Positions 30,496 to 52,808 of a stretch of 64,000 nt of DNA are shown here, piece by piece. This DNA is from Algoriphagus ratkowskyi (GTDB lineage: Bacteria; Bacteroidota; Bacteroidia; Cytophagales; Cyclobacteriaceae). A program made the translations under genes and the position numbers. The first letter of the stretch is position 1, and each line of letters starts with the position of its first letter. The stretch lies in contig NZ_MSSV01000006.1 of NCBI RefSeq assembly GCF_002150505.1, positions 62,001 to 126,000 on the forward strand. The letters run 5' to 3'. The notes beneath the pieces are model-generated. The model was not told the origin of the DNA. It saw nothing but the letters and a program-made list of their open reading frames with translations, and ran no database searches.

Positions 30496-33400
30496 TTAGG
30501 CTTTTTCTACCAAAACAGCTAGTTCAAAATCATCCATATCAAGCACTGATGCGCCTTCCAACTCTGTCGAAAGCTCCAGTTTCAATGCTTGTACCTCAGT
30601 TTGGATGTATTCTCCAAAAGAATTAATTGCGTTATTTACCAACTCATTATCATTAGCAAGCTTGATGTTGATCTTATCCTGAACTTCCAATCCCATGTCT
30701 TTACGTAGATTCTGTATGCGATTGACAAGATCTCTTGCGATTCCTTCTTGCTGCAGCTCATCAGATAGTGTCACATCTAGTGCTACTGTCACTCCCTGAT
30801 CAGATGCTACAGACCATCCTGGAATATCCTGTGAAGTGATCAGTACTTCCTCTAATAAAAGTTCAAGACTTTCACCATCCACATCTACGGAGATTTTACC
30901 TTCACGTTCGATTTCAGCGATTTCAGCTTGTTGCCAGTTATTAATAGCCGCCACTACGAAGCGCATTTTCGGTCCGAGTTTCTTGCCCAGTAGAGGAAGA
31001 TTAGGCTTCACATTTTTCACTAAGATCCCTGAAGCATCATCTATAAACTCAATGTCTTTGATATTCACTTCAGATTTGATCAGATCTTCCAAATGTTGGA
31101 TTTGAGCTTTTGTTTTCTCTTTTAATATTGGAATCAAAATCCTTTGCAAAGGCTGACGCACTTTCATCTTCTCTTTTTTTCTGAGGGAGTGTACCAAAGA
31201 TGAAATCGTTTGAGACAGTTCCATGCTTTCTTCCAGATCAGTATTGATCAAAGAAGAATCGGCAGCCACCCAATCCGTCAAATGCACAGAAGCTTTCGCA
31301 TCTGATCCTGATTCTGTCAAATTCTGATACAACCAATCCGAATAGAATGGTGCAAAAGAAGACATCAACTTGGTAAGGGAAAGCAAAGACTCATAAAGCG
31401 TTTCGTATGCTGCCTGCTTATCTGCATTCATCTCACCTCTCCAGAATCTCTTTCTCGCAAGACGTACGTACCAGTTGGAAAGCTGATCTACCGTGAAACT
31501 CATGATCGCACGAGTCGCTTTAGTAGCATCGTAATTATCCATAGCTTCTTCTACCTCAGCGATTAAAGACTGAAGTTTAGAAAGAATCCACTGATCTAGT
31601 TCTGCTCGCTCTGTGGCTGGTATAGCTTTAGACTTGTCATAGACAAAAGCATCCAAATTTGCATAAAGTGCAAAGAAATTATAAGTATTTTGAAGGGTGC
31701 CGAAAAAGCGACGTTGCACCTCAGTCACACCATCCAGATTGAATTTCAAGTTATCCCAAGGATTGGCATTGCTCAATAAATACCAACGCACCGCATCGGG
31801 ACCATATTCCTTAAGTGTTTTGAAAGGATCGACAGCATTTCCCAATCGCTTGGACATCTTGTTGCCGTTCTTATCCAGCACAAGTCCATTTGCAATTACG
31901 TTTTTGAATGCTACGCTATCAAAAAGCATCACTGAAATCGCGTGAAGCGTAAAGAACCAACCACGGGTTTGATCAACACCTTCAGCGATGTAATCTGCTG
32001 GATAGTTTGCCTTGAAAATATCCTCATTTTCAAAAGGATAATGCCACTGAGCATAAGGCATCGCTCCAGAATCAAACCAAACGTCTATCAAATCAGCCTC
32101 GCGGATCATTTTCTCACCCTTGGCAGAAACCAAAATCACATCATCTACAAATGGACGGTGAAGATCCAGTTCCCTGCCTTCGTATGGGGACTTTTTCATA
32201 AAGCCTTTCGCAATTGATTCATCTATCGCAGTTTCCAATTCAGCAATAGATCCTATGCAACGCTCTTCTGTACCATCTTCTGTTCTCCAGATCGGAAGCG
32301 GCGTGCCCCAGAATCTGGATCTGCTCAAGTTCCAATCAACCAAGTTTTCCAGCCAGTTGCCAAAACGACCCGTTCCAGTAGCCTCAGGCTTCCAGTTGAT
32401 CGTCTTATTTAGCTCTACTAATCTGTCTTTGTAAGCTGTGGTTTTGATAAACCAGCTGTCCATAGGATAGTAAAGCACAGGCTTGTCAGTTCTCCAACAA
32501 TGTGGATAACTGTGCTCATATTTCTCTACCTTAAAGGCCTTATTTTCATTTTTCAGGATGATAGAAATGATCACGTCGGTGCTTTTGAAGTCCGTAGCAT
32601 TCTCATCATCCTCAGTATAGTTTTTCACATAGAAATCATCTACGCCATATTCTTTATGGGCAGTAATTCCATGTTCAGCTACTTTTTCTACAAGGAATTC
32701 ACCTACCATCGTGATGAATTTCCCGCGCTTATCCACAATCGGAATATCTTTTCCTTGCTCATCCTTTACGAATACGCCAGGGATATTATTCTGCGCGAGC
32801 GTTCTAAAGTCATCCGCACCAAAAGCTTTGGCAAGGTGAACGATTCCAGTACCATCTTCTGTAGTAACATAATCCCCAGAAACTACTGTGAATGCTGGAT
32901 TTGGCAGTGCCAACCCTGAGATTGGAAATAATTGCTCGTATTCCCAGCCAAGCATATCTTTTCCTTTGAACTCTTCAATAACTTCGAAAGGAATCAGCTT
33001 GTCGCCAGCTTTATAATCCTCCAATTTCAGTTCAGCAGCCTTAGGATTTAGGTAAGAGTTAATTCTGGCTTTCGCCAAAATCACCGTGCAAGCGTCGAAA
33101 GTATAGGGATTGAAAGTTTTCACTTTCACATAGTCCAAGTTCTCTCCAATCGCCAAAGCCGAGTTAGCTGGCAAAGTCCATGGAGTCGTCGTCCAAGCTA
33201 TGATATAGGTGTTTTCTTCACCTTTTAGCTTGAACTGAGCGGTGATGGAAGTGTCTTTTACATCCTTGTAAGTGCCTGGCTGATTAAGTTCGTGCGAACT
33301 CAAACCTGTACCAGCAGCTGGCGAATAGGGCTGAATTGTATAGCCTTTGTAGATTAGATCTTTGTCGTAAAGCTTCTTTAGCAGGCTCCACACTGACTCG

Positions 33401-34141: not shown

Positions 34142-34218
34142 TTTTTGATTTGCTATCTCTTTGGCTCTAATTTATTGGCTTTAAACTCTTAATACTTATG
34201 TCTTGCTACTAGGTACTT
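34142..34218 (-). repeat. Degenerate 7-base tandem repeat at the 3' end of the Fic gene
   Basis: Read on the minus strand, about ten consecutive heptads stay in phase from 34218 down to 34149, with types such as AAGTACC, TAGTAGC, AAGTATT and TAGAGCC. The consensus is roughly (A/T)AGnnn(C/T). The last Fic codons and its TAG stop lie within the first two units. Confidence 0.75.
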
Positions 34219-35321
34219 ATCACCAACTCATAACTCACACTTCTTCCTCCACCCTGCGGTAAAAAGACCCCTAACTCAGTTAAGGCCTGCAAATCACGAG
34301 TTGCAGTTGCTTTGGAAGCTTTCGTGATCGCAATGAATTTCTTAGCGGTCATTCCTCCTTCAAAACCCGCTGGTCCTTCGACAAGCATTCGATTGATGAC
34401 TTTCACTTGGCGTTCATTGAGTTCACTTTTATAGCGATCAAAGAATTTGACTTTTTGGAGCGTGAAGTTGATTAATCGCTCTGCGCTCAGCTGAGAATGA
34501 TAAACTGTGTCCGAAAAGTAATCGAGCCAATCCGAAATTTCGTTAGCGCTTTGTCCACTTTTCAGCGCATCGTAATACTGCTTTTTCTTAGCCTCTATCG
34601 TAGTGGAAAGACTAATCAATGTGGCCTGCCCCAATCCTTGATGCAATGCCTTTTCTGCCAAAGCCCGACCAATTCGGCCATTTCCATCTTTGAAAGGGTG
34701 AACCGATTCAAAATATAAATGAGTGATTGCAGACCGGATCAGCGGATTGTTTATCGTAGCTGTTTTCCCTGGAGCTGTTTCGTTAAACCAAGAGATAAAG
34801 GCGTCCATTTCAGCTGGAATCTGGGTAGAAGGAGGTGCTTCGAAATGCACGGTTTCCTTCCCAATTGTTCCTGAAACTACTTGCATTGGAGCAGAATCTG
34901 AACGCCACCGTCCTGCTCGAACGTATCGATTTCCTTCCATTAGCAATTCATGCCACTCGAAAAGTGCTTCTTCTGTCAATTCCTGCGCATAATCTGCTCG
35001 CACTTTGATCATCAATTTTGCGATGCCATTAGCACGCTGATCTTTGACAAGCAAAGGTTGCTCCTCATGAATACCAAGGTTCTTTTTGATAGAAGACATC
35101 ACGTCTGGGCGACTGAGAAATTCACCTTCGATCTCGGAAGTTTTGATTGCTTCCACTACCATCATTTCCAGTAGCAGTTCGGTCTGATTCCCCTCCGACA
35201 AACCAGTAAGCACGCCAGACATTTGTCCGGATTTCATGAGAAAATCAAGCAGTATTTTCCCAGACTTACCTTCCTTATAGGTGAATTTTGGCCAATCCGA
35301 CTGTTCCCAATTATAGCTCAT
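34209..35321 (-). CDS. Fic family protein with N-terminal inhibitory helix and C-terminal winged helix
   Basis: 370 residues from the ATG at 35321. An upstream TTG at 35336 would put the start inside the operator palindrome and is rejected. The Fic motif HPFKDGNGRIGR (His near residue 208) is complete, so it should transfer AMP (or another NMP) to a target. The N-terminal DUF4172-like part (YNWEQSDWPKFTY) contains the inhibitory signature (S/T)xxxE(G/N) as TSEIEG, placing it in the class II self-inhibited group. The C-terminal ~90 residues (LNERQVKVINRMLVEGP..TRDLQALTELGVF) form a winged helix that could bind DNA. Expected to act as a regulated AMPylator; targets unknown. The stop lies in a heptad repeat. 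Confidence 0.93.
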   Translation of the reverse strand: MSYNWEQSDWPKFTYKEGKSGKILLDFLMKSGQMSGVLTGLSEGNQTELLLEMMVVEAIKTSEIEGEFLSRPDVMSSIKKNLGIHEEQPLLVKDQRANGIAKLMIKVRADYAQELTEEALFEWHELLMEGNRYVRAGRWRSDSAPMQVVSGTIGKETVHFEAPPSTQIPAEMDAFISWFNETAPGKTATINNPLIRSAITHLYFESVHPFKDGNGRIGRALAEKALHQGLGQATLISLSTTIEAKKKQYYDALKSGQSANEISDWLDYFSDTVYHSQLSAERLINFTLQKVKFFDRYKSELNERQVKVINRMLVEGPAGFEGGMTAKKFIAITKASKATATRDLQALTELGVFLPQGGGRSVSYELVIST

Positions 35322-35393
35322 GAGCCGAATATACAACTTATTCGGCTCATAATATCAAGTATTTTGAGCCGAATAAGAGAACTATTCGGCTCA
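35321..35393 (-). promoter_or_regulatory. Double palindromic operator upstream of fic
   Basis: Two identical perfect palindromes, each TGAGCCGAATA - 7 bases - TATTCGGCTCA, occupy 35321-35349 and 35365-35393, with centres 44 bases apart. They sit on the fic start codon and just upstream, also between fic and the divergent GH43 gene (whose ATG is at 35544). They are probably bound by the Fic winged helix or another repressor. Confidence 0.75.
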
Positions 35394-44633: not shown

Positions 44634-46355
44634 ATGTCGAAGAGTAATATCATCCTTATCGTCGTCTTAATGTCCCTTGCCAGCTTTGGTTTGATGGGCT
44701 TCCAATTCTATTGGGTGAAGAATGCTATTCGAATCAATAGTGAGCGATTTGATCAGAATGTTCTTCAGGCGCTCAATGGTACAATTGAGCAGTTAGAGAA
44801 GGGAGAGAACTCTGATATGATCTACAGTTTTATATTTCAGGACTCATCGGTACAGAAGTCTCTGTTTGAGAAAATTGATCCCTTGGAAATTCAATATAGA
44901 TCCAGGCCAAACGCAAGAAATAGACCATCTTTAGTCGACACATTTTTCCAAGAATCAGCACCTAAAGTAAGCCCGACATTCAAGAGAATTTTAGAATCTC
45001 GAGGGATGGATAGTAAGGTATTGGATGATTTGGAAACCTTTTTTACTTATTTGACACCAGAAGTTGCTTCAGAGCTCTTCACCCCAGACGAAATGCAAGT
45101 ATTGCTATCGGAAAAAGAACGCCAATATGACTATTTAAATAGAGTAGAGAACTCTACCAAGCAACGGAGGCCATCCGTTTCTCAACAAAATTTCCAATAT
45201 GGATTCCTTGAAATGAATCTTACGCCAGATGCAATAGAAAAAATTGCCAAGGCTAATAGGAAGATAGAATTCTTCAATAAAATGTGGGATGAGATGGCAG
45301 CTGGACAGCAAGCTATTCTGGATAGATTAGATACTGCACAAGTCCGGAAGTTGTTGAAAGGCTATTTGCTGGAACAGAATATATTGGAGGATTTTGAGTT
45401 GGGGCTTATGAAAGATGATGGTTTGATCATGCCTATTGGGAATGTAAAGGAACAGTTCACCTTGGTGCAAAAAGGTATTCAAGCCAAGCTTTTTCCGAAT
45501 GACATTTTAGGCAAGAATAATTACCTGTATTTATATTTTCCAGAGAAAAGCAACCACGTCATCCGTGAAGTCTGGTTGCCAATTTCCAGTTCTATAGTGT
45601 TCATCTTAGTTATTATTTTATGCTTTGTTTATGCAATCAAAGTGATTATTCGACAAAAGGCTCTTTCGGATACTAAGAATGATTTCATCAATAATATGAC
45701 ACATGAATTCAAGACGCCACTGGCTACGGTTAGTTTGGCAGTTGAGGCACTTCAAGATCCCGAGCTGTCCAGTCAGGACAAGTTTCGAGCTAGATATTTG
45801 GGTATTATTAAAGATGAAAATAAACGCTTGGTCTCACAGGTAGAAAATGTCCTCCAGGCGGCTGCGTTGGATAAGAAGGATTTCCAACTGAAAATTGAAG
45901 AATTAAATTTAGCAGAGATTTTAGAAACTACGGTTGATCATTTTGACCTTCAGGTAGAGAAAAAAGGTGGGCATATCACATTTATCAATGAGCTGAATCA
46001 ACCTATTATCGAGGGTGATCTTTTTCACATCACCCATATTTTCAACAATTTGCTGGACAACGCAAATAAATATTCTCCTGATATTCCTACGATCATCATA
46101 AAAGCTAAAGACGATACCAATCAAGTCTATATTTCCATTACAGATGAAGGAATCGGGATGAATAAAGATGCACAACGGAAAATTTTCGATAAATTCTACC
46201 GAGTTCCAACGGGTAATGTACATGACGTCAAAGGTTTTGGCCTTGGATTGTCCTATGTAAAAACTATGCTGGAAGCTCACAAAGGAGTAATACAAGTAAG
46301 TAGCGAACTTGGAAAAGGGAGCTCATTCACCATAAACTTACCAAAGAAACAATGA
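44634..46355 (+). CDS. Two-component sensor histidine kinase
   Basis: 573 residues. Two membrane helices (about 5-28 and 311-335) bracket a ~280-residue periplasmic sensor of unknown fold rich in Gln, Lys and Glu. Cytoplasmic part: HisKA with phospho-His357 in MTHEFKTPLA, then HATPase with NNLLDNANKYSPD (N box), DEGIGMNKD (G1), FDKFYRVPTGNVHDVKGFGLGLS (F and G2 boxes). The stop and the next start overlap (ATGA), so kinase and regulator are made together. Signal unknown. Confidence 0.95.
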   Translation: MSKSNIILIVVLMSLASFGLMGFQFYWVKNAIRINSERFDQNVLQALNGTIEQLEKGENSDMIYSFIFQDSSVQKSLFEKIDPLEIQYRSRPNARNRPSLVDTFFQESAPKVSPTFKRILESRGMDSKVLDDLETFFTYLTPEVASELFTPDEMQVLLSEKERQYDYLNRVENSTKQRRPSVSQQNFQYGFLEMNLTPDAIEKIAKANRKIEFFNKMWDEMAAGQQAILDRLDTAQVRKLLKGYLLEQNILEDFELGLMKDDGLIMPIGNVKEQFTLVQKGIQAKLFPNDILGKNNYLYLYFPEKSNHVIREVWLPISSSIVFILVIILCFVYAIKVIIRQKALSDTKNDFINNMTHEFKTPLATVSLAVEALQDPELSSQDKFRARYLGIIKDENKRLVSQVENVLQAAALDKKDFQLKIEELNLAEILETTVDHFDLQVEKKGGHITFINELNQPIIEGDLFHITHIFNNLLDNANKYSPDIPTIIIKAKDDTNQVYISITDEGIGMNKDAQRKIFDKFYRVPTGNVHDVKGFGLGLSYVKTMLEAHKGVIQVSSELGKGSSFTINLPKKQ

Positions 46356-47047
46356 GTAAAGCGAAATTATTAGTGGTCGAAGATGATCCAAATTTGGGAG
46401 ATATCCTGAAGGAATATTTGGAAATGAAAGGGTATGAACCTACGCTTTGCCGTGATGGTGAAGAAGGTTGGAACAAATACAAAAAAGGGAAATTTGATCT
46501 TTGCCTTCTCGACATTATGATGCCGAAAAAAGATGGATTTACTCTTGCGAAAGAAATTAAGAAAGTAGAAGAAAACCTTCCTATTCTCTTCCTGACCGCA
46601 AAAAATCAAAAAGATGACATCATCGAAGGATTGAAAATAGGTGCGGATGATTACATCACCAAGCCGTTTAGCATGGAAGAATTACTCCTTCGGGTCAATG
46701 CAATTTTAAAAAGAACGCATAAGAGTGAAGATATCAATCCACTGAAAGTATACTCCTTTGGAGGTTTTGTACTTCATTATGATGAGCAATTTTTGGATGG
46801 CCCAAATGGACGCCATAAGTTGACTTCCAAAGAAAATGAGCTTATTCGTTTGTTAGCATCCGAGATCAATAACTTGGTGAATAGAAGTCATGCGCTCAAG
46901 CAAATCTGGGGTGATGATAGCTACTTCAATGCCCGAAGTATGGATGTGTACCTGAGTAAAATCCGAAAGATTCTGAAAGATGATCCTAAAGTGCAGATCA
47001 TCACGGTACACGGTGAAGGATTTAAGCTGATCGTGAGTGAAGGGTAA
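46352..47047 (+). CDS. OmpR/PhoB-family response regulator
   Basis: 231 residues. Receiver domain with phospho-acceptor Asp54 (LLDIMMPKKDG), acidic pair in VEDDPN, Thr in LFLTAKNQKDD and Lys in YITKPFSMEEL. The C-terminal winged helix runs from LTSKENELIRLLA through RSMDVYLSKIRKIL to the end. Overlaps the kinase start by 4 bases. A terminator lies 48 bases beyond the stop; faint AAGTATT-like heptads occupy that gap. Confidence 0.95.
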   Translation: MSKAKLLVVEDDPNLGDILKEYLEMKGYEPTLCRDGEEGWNKYKKGKFDLCLLDIMMPKKDGFTLAKEIKKVEENLPILFLTAKNQKDDIIEGLKIGADDYITKPFSMEELLLRVNAILKRTHKSEDINPLKVYSFGGFVLHYDEQFLDGPNGRHKLTSKENELIRLLASEINNLVNRSHALKQIWGDDSYFNARSMDVYLSKIRKILKDDPKVQIITVHGEGFKLIVSEG

Positions 47048-47095
47048 ACTCTGTAAAAAGTGAGAAGTATTTATTGTAAGTAGTATAAAACTCAA

Positions 47096-47135
47096 AAGCC
47101 AGAGTGATGTAAAATCGCTCTGGCTTAATTTTTTT
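47096..47135 (+). terminator. Terminator of the kinase/regulator operon
   Basis: AAGCCAGAGTGA and TCGCTCTGGCTT make a 12-base stem (one G-T), 7-base loop, then AATTTTTTT. Confidence 0.88.
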
Positions 47136-47138
47136 CTA

Positions 47139-47215
47139 AGATCTTGACTCTCAATTCTTGACTCTTATATCTCAATATTTACTTTTTGCTACTTAAATCT
47201 AGCTACTTGCTACTC
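47139..47215 (-). repeat. Degenerate 7-base tandem repeat after the dipeptide epimerase stop
   Basis: On the minus strand eleven heptads run in one phase from 47215 down to 47139. They include AAGTAGC twice, GAGTAGC, AAGAGTC, GAGAGTC and AAGAATT. The TGA stop of the gene is at the very edge of the first unit. Confidence 0.8.
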
Positions 47216-48227
47216 AAACAATCATTTCCGCCCCAATTCCATTTCCTTCAGGGAAAGTCACTTTTTCAGGTGTGATGACCACACCCTTTGCGGGATCTTT
47301 GGAAAGCAGCATCGCTCCATCCATGTCCACATAGTCAAGAAGAGGTGCAATATGAGCTATTGCTGTGATACCAACAGACGATTCAGTCATGCATCCTACC
47401 ATCGTTTTCATGCCCAGTTCTTTTGCCTCACGAATCATTCTAAGACCTGGTGTAATCCCACCAGCCTTCACCAGCTTCACGTTGATTCCATGAAAAAGCC
47501 CATGGCATTTCTGCACGTCAGTTTCCACAATGCAGCTTTCATCCGCGATCACAGGAAGTTTGCTATGCTTGAATACTTCCTTCATTCCTTCCAGATCATC
47601 TTTTCCCAGAGGTTGTTCCATAAATTCCACTCCTAGCTTTTCCAGCTCCACTGAGTTAGTAATTGCTTGCTCAGCAGTCCATGCGCAGTTCGCATCTATT
47701 CTAAAAACTCCATCTGTATGTTTTCTTAGTTCACGGATGATTGCTAGATCATCTGAAGTGCCCAGTTTGATTTTATATATAGGCCAGTGAACTTCCTTCA
47801 TTTTAGACACCATCTTCTCCATAGTATCAATTCCTATTGTAAAATTTGTAGTCGGAATAGTCTCTGGGTTCAAACCCAAAAGCTCGTATAATTTTTTCCC
47901 CTGCTTTTTTGAATATATGTCCCAGGCAGCCATGTCTAGTGCACATTGCGCAAAAGGATTATCTTTGAATACCTCTTTGCCTAGATCCCAAAGCTCCGCA
48001 GGTGTTTTCCACTCACCTTTTTCGACTATAGGCCTGAATTTTTCCAAACATTCCGACATATTAGTAATAGTCATACCGTAGAAAGGATTGGTGGTAGATT
48101 CACCTAAGCCGTAAAATGCACCATCTTGCAGTTTTACGATGAGAGTATCTTGCACATCTCTACTTTGATGAGCAATGGTGAATGTATGCTTGAGGGGTAG
48201 ATCAACGACTTGGTAGGATAACTTCAT
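47214..48227 (-). CDS. L-Ala-D/L-Glu dipeptide epimerase (enolase superfamily)
   Basis: 337 residues from the ATG at 48227. A longer frame from 48293 is rejected because a TAATTTTG promoter element (48251-48258) lies between. Muconate-lactonizing-enzyme-like enolase fold: the KxK motif IYKIKLGTSDD, first metal Asp in FRIDANCAW, Glu in EQPLGKDD, Asp in VIADESC, then KLVKAGGITPG and GCMTESSVG. These fit epimerases that convert L-Ala-D-Glu to L-Ala-L-Glu, used in peptidoglycan recycling. The 3' end is followed directly by a heptad repeat. Confidence 0.93.
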   Translation of the reverse strand: MKLSYQVVDLPLKHTFTIAHQSRDVQDTLIVKLQDGAFYGLGESTTNPFYGMTITNMSECLEKFRPIVEKGEWKTPAELWDLGKEVFKDNPFAQCALDMAAWDIYSKKQGKKLYELLGLNPETIPTTNFTIGIDTMEKMVSKMKEVHWPIYKIKLGTSDDLAIIRELRKHTDGVFRIDANCAWTAEQAITNSVELEKLGVEFMEQPLGKDDLEGMKEVFKHSKLPVIADESCIVETDVQKCHGLFHGINVKLVKAGGITPGLRMIREAKELGMKTMVGCMTESSVGITAIAHIAPLLDYVDMDGAMLLSKDPAKGVVITPEKVTFPEGNGIGAEMIV

Positions 48228-48250
48228 TTGCGGAAAAATTCGATTTGAAG

Positions 48251-48258
48251 CAAAATTA
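48251..48258 (-). promoter_or_regulatory. -7 element of the dipeptide epimerase gene (TAATTTTG)
   Basis: TAnnTTTG match on the minus strand, 23 bases before the ATG at 48227. Confidence 0.5.
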
Positions 48259-48319
48259 ACGTGTTTTTGCTTGAATGATAAGTAGTATAACATTTTATTG
48301 AAGGTAAATAGAAATTATT

Positions 48320-52323: not shown

Positions 52324-52349
52324 GGCGCTGTGATTTCATTCACAGCGCC
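52324..52349 (-). terminator. Bidirectional terminator between rlmF and OsmC genes
   Basis: GGCGCTGTGA and TCACAGCGCC form a perfect 10-base stem with a 6-base loop. The T tail on the minus strand is better, so it mainly serves the OsmC gene. Confidence 0.85.
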
Positions 52350-52397
52350 ATTCTTTTGTCTAGCTACTTGATACTAAAATCTACATTCTAGAAATCA
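52349..52397 (-). repeat. Degenerate 7-base tandem repeat after the OsmC stop
   Basis: Seven in-phase heptads on the minus strand, including TAGAATG, TAGATTT, TAGTATC and AAGTAGC. The first overlaps the TGA stop codon and the last reaches the terminator stem. Confidence 0.75.
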
Positions 52398-52808
52398 AGC
52401 ATTCAAAGTACTTTCCACGCTGATTTCCAGATTCAGTACTCGTGAGATAGGACAATTTTCTTCTGCGTCTTTCACCAACTCATCGAATTTTTCTTGAGTA
52501 ACCCCATCTACTTTTGCCTTTAGCACCAAGTGAGATTTTGTAAGTGTTCCTTCTTCAAATGTAATATTTGCAGTGACATCCAGTTCTGTTGCGGTGAAGC
52601 CTGCCTCTTGCAAATTGAAACTCAATTTCATTGCGAAACATCCTGAATGGGCCGCAGCGATTAATTCCTCTGGATTAGTACCTACACCACTTTCAAATCT
52701 GGATCCAAACGAATATGGTGTTTTATCTAAGACGTTACTTGCAGTAGTCAAATGGCCTTTGCCATCTTTACCTGTTCCTTGCCATACGGCGGTAGCTTTT
52801 CTGATCAT
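52395..52808 (-). CDS. OsmC family peroxiredoxin-like protein
   Basis: 137 residues, standard for OsmC/Ohr-like proteins. The two redox cysteines are in AAHSGCFAMKLSFNL and ENCPISRVLN; the N-terminal strand part (KATAVWQGTGKDGKGHLTTASNVL) and YSFGSRFESGVGTNPEELIAAAH match OsmC. It reduces organic hydroperoxides with thiols. No peroxide regulator is nearby. The stop is followed directly by a heptad repeat. Confidence 0.94.
   Translation of the reverse strand: MIRKATAVWQGTGKDGKGHLTTASNVLDKTPYSFGSRFESGVGTNPEELIAAAHSGCFAMKLSFNLQEAGFTATELDVTANITFEEGTLTKSHLVLKAKVDGVTQEKFDELVKDAEENCPISRVLNLEISVESTLNA

Follow-up and report, generated by a model that had tools for sequence, protein, structure and literature searches.

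Within a 64,000-nucleotide stretch of the Algoriphagus ratkowskyi genome (contig NZ_MSSV01000006.1, positions 62,001 to 126,000; here called the window), in-phase runs of seven-base units follow the stop codons of a dipeptide epimerase-like gene, a Fic gene, and an OsmC gene. We consider these runs to be, probably, solitary members, without an open reading frame (ORF), of a class of heptad arrays whose other members make up the inverted arms flanking genes for the 23S rRNA-intervening-sequence protein (IVP/S23; PF05635). The association of such arrays with IVP genes is specific and broad for this repeat class.

Paired heptad arms flank IVP genes

Heptad arrays were first seen beside two PF05635 genes in genome G058. 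Loci were gathered as 30 PF05635 loci of the genus, 20 more stretches, and 80 named loci, the last being the best 80 of at least 555 confirmed in a scan of species genomes and not a random sample. From the 57 plus 94 IVP ORFs obtained, three repeats (L250 to L252) and four with short flanks (L138, L192, L224, and L244) were removed, leaving 144, many of them orthologous, with start codons assigned by script; the genus contributed 58 and the named loci 86. The controls were 159 genes of similar size (80 to 170 amino acids) from three genomes of one genus.

A typical IVP gene had heptads on both sides, each array pointing towards the gene. The element consists of one PF05635 gene, present by construction of the set, in an intergenic gap (within operons in the contexts identified); a sense array follows the stop codon of the preceding gene, and an inverted one stands ahead of the start codon of the next gene. 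The arm words varied among loci yet agreed between both arms of one locus. For instance, AAGTACN arms were found between the genes for 2-oxoacid dehydrogenase E2 and a lipoamide dehydrogenase-like protein (sucB-lpd), and AAGTATC/AAGACAT arms between ECH and thiolase genes; further words were CGGAAGAC, TCGGATG, GAGATTT, GAGTATT, and CGGTTTC, among others.

Both arms reached at least 16 of 28 matches at a lag of 7 nt in 99 of the 144 IVP loci (45 of 58 from the genus and 54 of 86 named loci) and in none of the 159 controls. At a threshold of 15, the counts were 108 and 2, and over thresholds from 14 to 18, they fell from 113 to 61 for IVP loci and from 6 to 0 for controls. An inverted match between the flanks (score of at least 13) was present in 121 of 144 IVP loci versus 5 of 159 controls, while direct matches were found in 33 and 7, respectively. 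Only lags 7 and 14 were raised at IVP loci, with values at lag 7 of 18.8 upstream and 17.7 downstream versus about 11 to 13 at the others, and the inverted score was 17.8 within a locus compared with 9.8 across loci. When one locus was kept per 55% identity cluster, 31 of 51 had both arms and 42 of 51 had the inverted match. The upstream arm carried the G strand nearly always (RG in 53 and CY in 1 of 83 loci). A universal RG core of the heptads was weak as a candidate, given that 36 of 83 reversed controls also showed it against 53 of 83 upstream arms.

The arms mark IVP genes rather than two other families and reach beyond the genus

Two other small gene families were analyzed at a threshold of 15. 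Both heptad arms were found in 1 of 29 GxxExxY genes (PF13366; L255 to L284) and in 3 of 31 rows of DUF559 genes (PF04480; L285 to L314), some of whose ORFs were counted twice. Compared with 108 of 144 for IVP, these values tie the heptads to IVP rather than to either of the two families. The flanks of GxxExxY genes were inverted too in 18 of 29 cases, but with other repeats such as GCGCAAAGACGCCAAGG, and some DUF559 genes adjoin CTCCCCTTTAGGGG-like repeats. Each small gene family may have a flank code of its own.

In ten genomes reached via the named loci, both arms were present at a threshold of 15 in 18 of 29 full-flank rows; one of the 30 rows had been dropped for its short flank, and some repeat genes of the 144-locus set (e.g., L366 and L212). 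Without three rows from A. ornithinivorans, the values for the remaining nine metagenome-assembled genomes (MAGs) were 15 of 26 for both arms and 18 of 26 for the inverted match. These MAGs are labeled, in some cases perhaps wrongly, as Alphaproteobacteria, Desulfosarcina, Fibrobacter, Clostridia, Verrucomicrobia, Gemmatimonadetes, Neomarinimicrobiota, Kuenenia, and Ignavibacteriae, and eight of the nine had at least one passing row, with none passing in Kuenenia. A PADLOC search with four IVPs gave no match.

Number and pairing of the units

The most frequent arm length was five units on both sides, found at 22 and 35 of 83 loci and, in a non-redundant set restricted beforehand to loci with clear arms whose inverted score was at least 12, at 10 and 13 of 43 loci. 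Two solved structures of IVP relatives, 2gsc and 2rld, have five chains entered each. Together, the five-unit mode and the five chains fit an arrangement of one subunit per heptad, though five is the mode and not a rule. The first of these structures is XCC0516, which is of Xanthomonas origin. Passages on the X. campestris S23 protein in a published report (PMC4990558) agree with such an origin. Across 98 loci, preselected by the same two properties, protein identity tracked the arm words (Mantel correlation of 0.33, reached by 0 of 500 permutations).

When the RNAs of two IVP elements were folded, the arms closed a stem round the ORF in both (z scores of −5.1 and −3.5), in keeping with the inverted match at 121 of 144 loci. 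Arm complementarity was 16.5, compared with 14.2 after permutation of the units, and was higher than permuted in 65 of 83 loci. Exact pairing therefore only partly accounts for the arms.

Single sense arrays begin at stop codons

In the window, the epimerase array comprises 12 units (positions 47132 to 47215, minus strand). It starts in the stop codon (TGA) of the epimerase-like gene (MR_MLE; 47214 to 48293, minus strand) and ends near a terminator-like hairpin (47096 to 47126, from sequence and predicted fold) lying between this gene and the convergent response regulator gene (Response_reg/Trans_reg_C; 46352 to 47047, plus strand). A first-pass annotation of the window had described 11 units in perfect phase here, which is slightly generous, as AAAAAGT and AAATATT break the AG. 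Eight units (34163 to 34218, minus strand) span the stop codon (TAG) of the Fic/DOC gene (DUF4172 plus Fic; 34209 to 35336, minus strand), and six (52349 to 52390, minus strand) lie 4 nt past the stop of the OsmC gene (52395 to 52808, minus strand), the last of them entering the terminator hairpin. Previously read as about ten units (34149 to 34218) and seven units (52349 to 52397), these two arrays keep their positions across and after the stop codon and become shorter. A fourth, weaker run placed past the response regulator stop (about 47060 to 47090) gave no match in a position weight matrix (PWM) scan, so that three of the four runs originally proposed stand as in-phase sense heptads. The gene names first given agree with the Pfam assignments used here. 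No Rfam match was found between positions 33000 and 53500 of the window.

The heptad unit of the arrays is N-A-G-W-N-N-Y in phase on the sense strand. Across 105 units, A and G were kept at 96 and 93%, as chosen by a PWM that itself favors AG, and the last three positions were variable. In predicted RNA folds of six stretches, the sense arrays were largely unpaired, with terminator hairpins 3′ of the epimerase, OsmC, and L010 arrays; the array of L021 was partly paired.

Placement was analyzed in three genomes over a total of 1.05 Mb (431,741 bp of the genome of the window, 300,000 of G065, and 320,000 of G021), after intergenic lag-7 arrays without a clear orientation had been dropped (16 of 36 in one set). 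A same-sense stop codon was located within 20 nt of the start of 23 of the 32 oriented intergenic arrays; 300 random placements gave 4.0 on average and never more than 11. Arrays pointing away from a start codon numbered 3 of 32, against a random mean of 4.1. Among further loci of the genome of the window, 10 of 16 rows (9 of 14 distinct arrays after merging by hand) were placed at same-sense stops. The stop codon as first NAG unit was considered but not retained: two of the seven possible phases accounted for 15 of 25 arrays (P of 0.001), the phases having been picked post hoc.

The abundance of the repeats was compared with chance in the same 431,741 bp. With a PWM trained on these data, 15 segments scored at least 18, versus 8 in each of two controls, one reversed and one complement-only; with a retrained matrix, built from two genomes and hence partly circular, 10 real versus 2 control segments reached a score of 26. 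Identity within noncoding DNA was highest at lag 7 (0.290) among lags 2 to 30, followed by lag 6 (0.287), with the remaining lags between 0.272 and 0.282. Over the whole genome, the pattern matched 21 plus 24 times and the reversed pattern 8 plus 5 times. Hence, the shared position and sense orientation that the first-pass annotation had stressed are confirmed, and neither random placement relative to stops nor equal numbers in reversed sequence was found.

A three-unit pattern was matched in 84 of 117 relatives, with a peak in G065 (up to 99 plus 70 matches versus 0 plus 0 reversed). Within the genus, G015, G022, G041, and G053 had no match to it, and in some relatives, the control matched as often as the real pattern. 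At loci orthologous to the epimerase stop, close relatives had in-phase heptads of other words, and many more distant ones had no repeats or different ones. Two further loci may be mentioned here. The 10-kb contig of L100 (G016:C52), which includes a long run of N, had 14 detected arrays, some 115 to 136 bp apart, among AlbA_2, AAA_14/DUF4143, and ABC transporter genes; visual inspection showed further heptads (GTGGACN, CCNACTG, and CCTCGTA) interspersed with these arrays. At L396 (G000:C10, about 71428 to 71628), a convergent gene pair has two inverted arrays that share the words TAGTAG(C/T) and AAGACGT.

Relation of the single arrays to IVP arms

The words of the single arrays resemble those of the arms. 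Of 204 NAG heptads from solo arrays, 81.9% were also present in IVP arms, which have 112 distinct NAG heptads, compared with 64.5% after column shuffling (maximum of 72.5% in 1,000 shuffles); both sets were found with one PWM, and the column shuffle allows for composition only.

The thiolase locus, looked at in 50 of 69 genomes (the epimerase locus in 30 of 69), displays filled, decayed, and empty sites. The IVP element occupied the gap before the thiolase gene in 15 of 30 genomes and the gap after it in 8 of 30. Gaps before thiolase of 37 to 43 nt were free of heptads (L334, L336, and L339), and gaps of 53 to 67 nt, including that of the genome of the window (L328), held some three to five GTACNAA-like heptads. 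In L359 (gap of 203 nt) and L360 (160 nt), both arms were kept round shortened and broken IVP remnants, and after thiolase, the right arm was kept without an IVP in L315, L317, L318, L327, and L328. Arms therefore outlive the gene at this locus. Matches to a WAG pattern had a median of 37 in the 28 genomes whose thiolase locus has an IVP ORF (among them L352, whose IVP is broken) versus 12 in the 22 without (P of 0.013), an excess that is suggestive only, given that the comparison ignores kinship and counts overlapping matches of one array repeatedly. Separately, the gap after thiolase in L315, L327, and L328 holds an inverted heptad pair, ATTCNNN/GAATNNN, without an ORF. This pair was 90 to 93% identical between G017 and G000/G066, with thiolase fourfold sites at only 42 to 45%, and the gap was 72 to 78% identical to those of G067 and G063.

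Several results weigh against the view that the window arrays belong with IVP arms, or against parts of it. None of the 32 arrays had an IVP remnant within 600 bp, and no IVP was detected at 30 orthologous epimerase loci. No clear second arm accompanied the solo arrays (score of 9.5 with their own downstream sequence versus 8.6 across arrays; P of 0.07 for 23 arrays). Their ratio of 23 to 3 at stops versus starts is not what simple decay of a two-arm element predicts; given this bias and the lack of a clear second arm, such decay is not supported as the origin of all solo arrays. In the genome of the window, five IVP genes were found, which carry mostly other words, one of them (AAGTAGT) being close to those of the window. 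As for the elements themselves, 45 of 144 loci fell below the two-arm threshold and 13 had no arm of at least 16; the 33 loci with a direct match had it instead of or besides the inverted one; several rows from other phyla showed a clear upstream arm only; arm complementarity was mostly a matter of vocabulary, as unit permutation reveals; and the link between protein and words was weak below 55% identity (Mantel correlation of 0.13, a value reached by 102 of 2,000 permutations). With no PF05635 gene or remnant nearby, no clear second arm, and mostly different words in the resident IVP genes, we class the window arrays as ORF-less members and not as proven remnants.

Some of the same observations would suit a 3′ untranslated region (UTR) platform, in which another RNA-binding protein binds the solo arrays and sets mRNA 3′-end stability, IVP genes merely sitting in such gaps. 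Sense placement at the stop, the lack of a clear second arm, and the largely unpaired state of the arrays in predicted RNA all point this way, and since the epimerase and OsmC arrays are in addition followed by a hairpin, the binding platform suggested in the first-pass annotation keeps a minor share of the probability. It leaves unaccounted for, however, the agreement of solo words with IVP arms beyond composition and the inverted match of the arms, which a sense-strand RNA platform does not need. We thus regard it as rather unlikely next to membership in the IVP-arm class.

Replication slippage, also raised in the first-pass annotation, would build or renew heptads of 7 nt in any noncoding gap, the products surviving best past stops. 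The gap with the ATTCNNN/GAATNNN pair is exactly one heptad longer in G000/G066 than in G017, an exact gain of one 7-nt unit, and slippage has been proposed for heptads overrepresented in other bacteria (PMC4692102). Nevertheless, plain slippage accounts neither for inverted arms that match each other in words particular to the locus, present round none of the 159 control genes and 1 of 29 GxxExxY genes, nor for the strand bias at stops, nor for an AG kept while the last positions vary (with the reservation that the PWM choosing the units favors AG). We therefore find it decidedly improbable as an alternative to the IVP-arm class.

A different role for gene-border arrays would be as recombination seams, kept since they allow in-phase exchange of genes between species. 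Between G000 and G066, units 1 to 5 of the epimerase array differed at 11 of 36 sites and units 6 to 12 plus the terminator at 2 of 134, while the coding sequences differed at 197 of 1,000 sites for the epimerase and 103 of 625 for the response regulator; identity at fourfold sites was 0.77 for thiolase and 0.42 for the epimerase. These data come from one locus and one species pair, and the seam may be a consequence rather than a cause of exchange, for which reason we rate this explanation as very unlikely. Alignment of positions 47048 to 47215 of the window with L075 (G066) places a mosaic border inside the epimerase array, where units 1 to 5 have diverged like the gene and the rest is nearly identical. 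A hot block of five units was discarded as a candidate, since the adjoining coding sequence has diverged too and the mosaic border explains the block.

A tentative model of heptad recognition

In the model that we infer, the IVP protein would recognize the heptads with one subunit per heptad and five per ring. Single sense arrays between stop and terminator, as in the window, would be left-over or nonautonomous arms tolerated there; alternatively, they may continue to be bound in the 3′ UTR as IVP-type sites. The IVP ORF might be excised from the RNA at the arms. The model proposed for this recognition, with no homology claimed, is TRAP (mtrB), a ring that holds one NAG repeat per subunit. TRAP is an 11-mer, and its repeats are about 5 nt apart. 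To our knowledge, IVP/S23 proteins have no established function.

A wider version is conceivable, and we put it forward with clear reserve. PF05635 rings might read sequence, each of the five subunits taking one heptad, and each IVP lineage, with a seven-base code of its own in two inverted arms, might spread among the operons of many phyla as an intervening sequence carried on mRNA. The solo arrays at stop codons would form a 3′-UTR network read or left by IVPs, and the GGGAATC and TAACTGA heptamers of other phyla would belong to the same phenomenon.

Comparison with known systems

The lack of a described function noted in the first-pass annotation agrees with the literature, while the position itself had already been described in Xanthomonas for the heptad GGGAATC (PMC4692102). 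There, the repeats lie at most 50 nt from stops on the coding strand, some across the stop, and form inverted pairs; the 23 of 32 arrays within 20 nt of a same-sense stop fall inside this range. Unlike the GGGAATC and GGGGA(C/T)T of Xanthomonas and Nostoc, the window arrays have AG in place of GGG. G-quadruplex or i-motif elements, as proposed for those repeats, have next to no probability here, and the G-quadruplex is excluded by the sequence of the window arrays, whose NAG units are without G-tracts. TAACTGA heptamers share the heptamer form and, in some Bacteroidetes, occur beside "other heptamer direct repeats," but the word is another and the position, in the main genome studied, is mostly just upstream of starts (PMC4679880); our arrays differ in both unit and position. 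The main text of the GGGAATC paper (PMC4692102) contains neither the IVP/S23 terms looked for nor XCC0516, and that of the TAACTGA paper (PMC4679880) contains none of the IVP/S23 terms looked for. In the literature searched, which did not cover subscription papers, no link between IVP and heptads was found. What is new here is the heptad arms at IVP genes, stop-codon heptads as such having been described in Xanthomonas.

Several bacterial phyla are known to have heptanucleotide repeats for which no partner had been noted, and the link to IVP gives them a likely partner protein. Since a binding sequence can now be predicted for every IVP, both repeat and protein become testable. The link also connects the intervening sequences of rRNA with a broader group of elements that reside in protein operons.

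The closest known system is the intervening sequence (IVS) of 23S rRNA genes, in which, according to the passages on S23 in PMC4990558, one ORF lies within a stem of complementary ends; its origin is described there as unclear, with a transposition remnant as one proposal, and the 28-bp terminal stem of the Coxiella IVS is cut by RNase III in vitro. The IVP elements have the same plan, one S23 ORF within a stem made by complementary ends. Unlike the 23S rRNA IVS, they are located between protein genes in the subset of loci whose neighbors were identified (E2 and the lipoamide dehydrogenase-like gene, or ECH and thiolase), their ends consist of tandem seven-base units whose words are particular to each locus, and single arms without an ORF occur.
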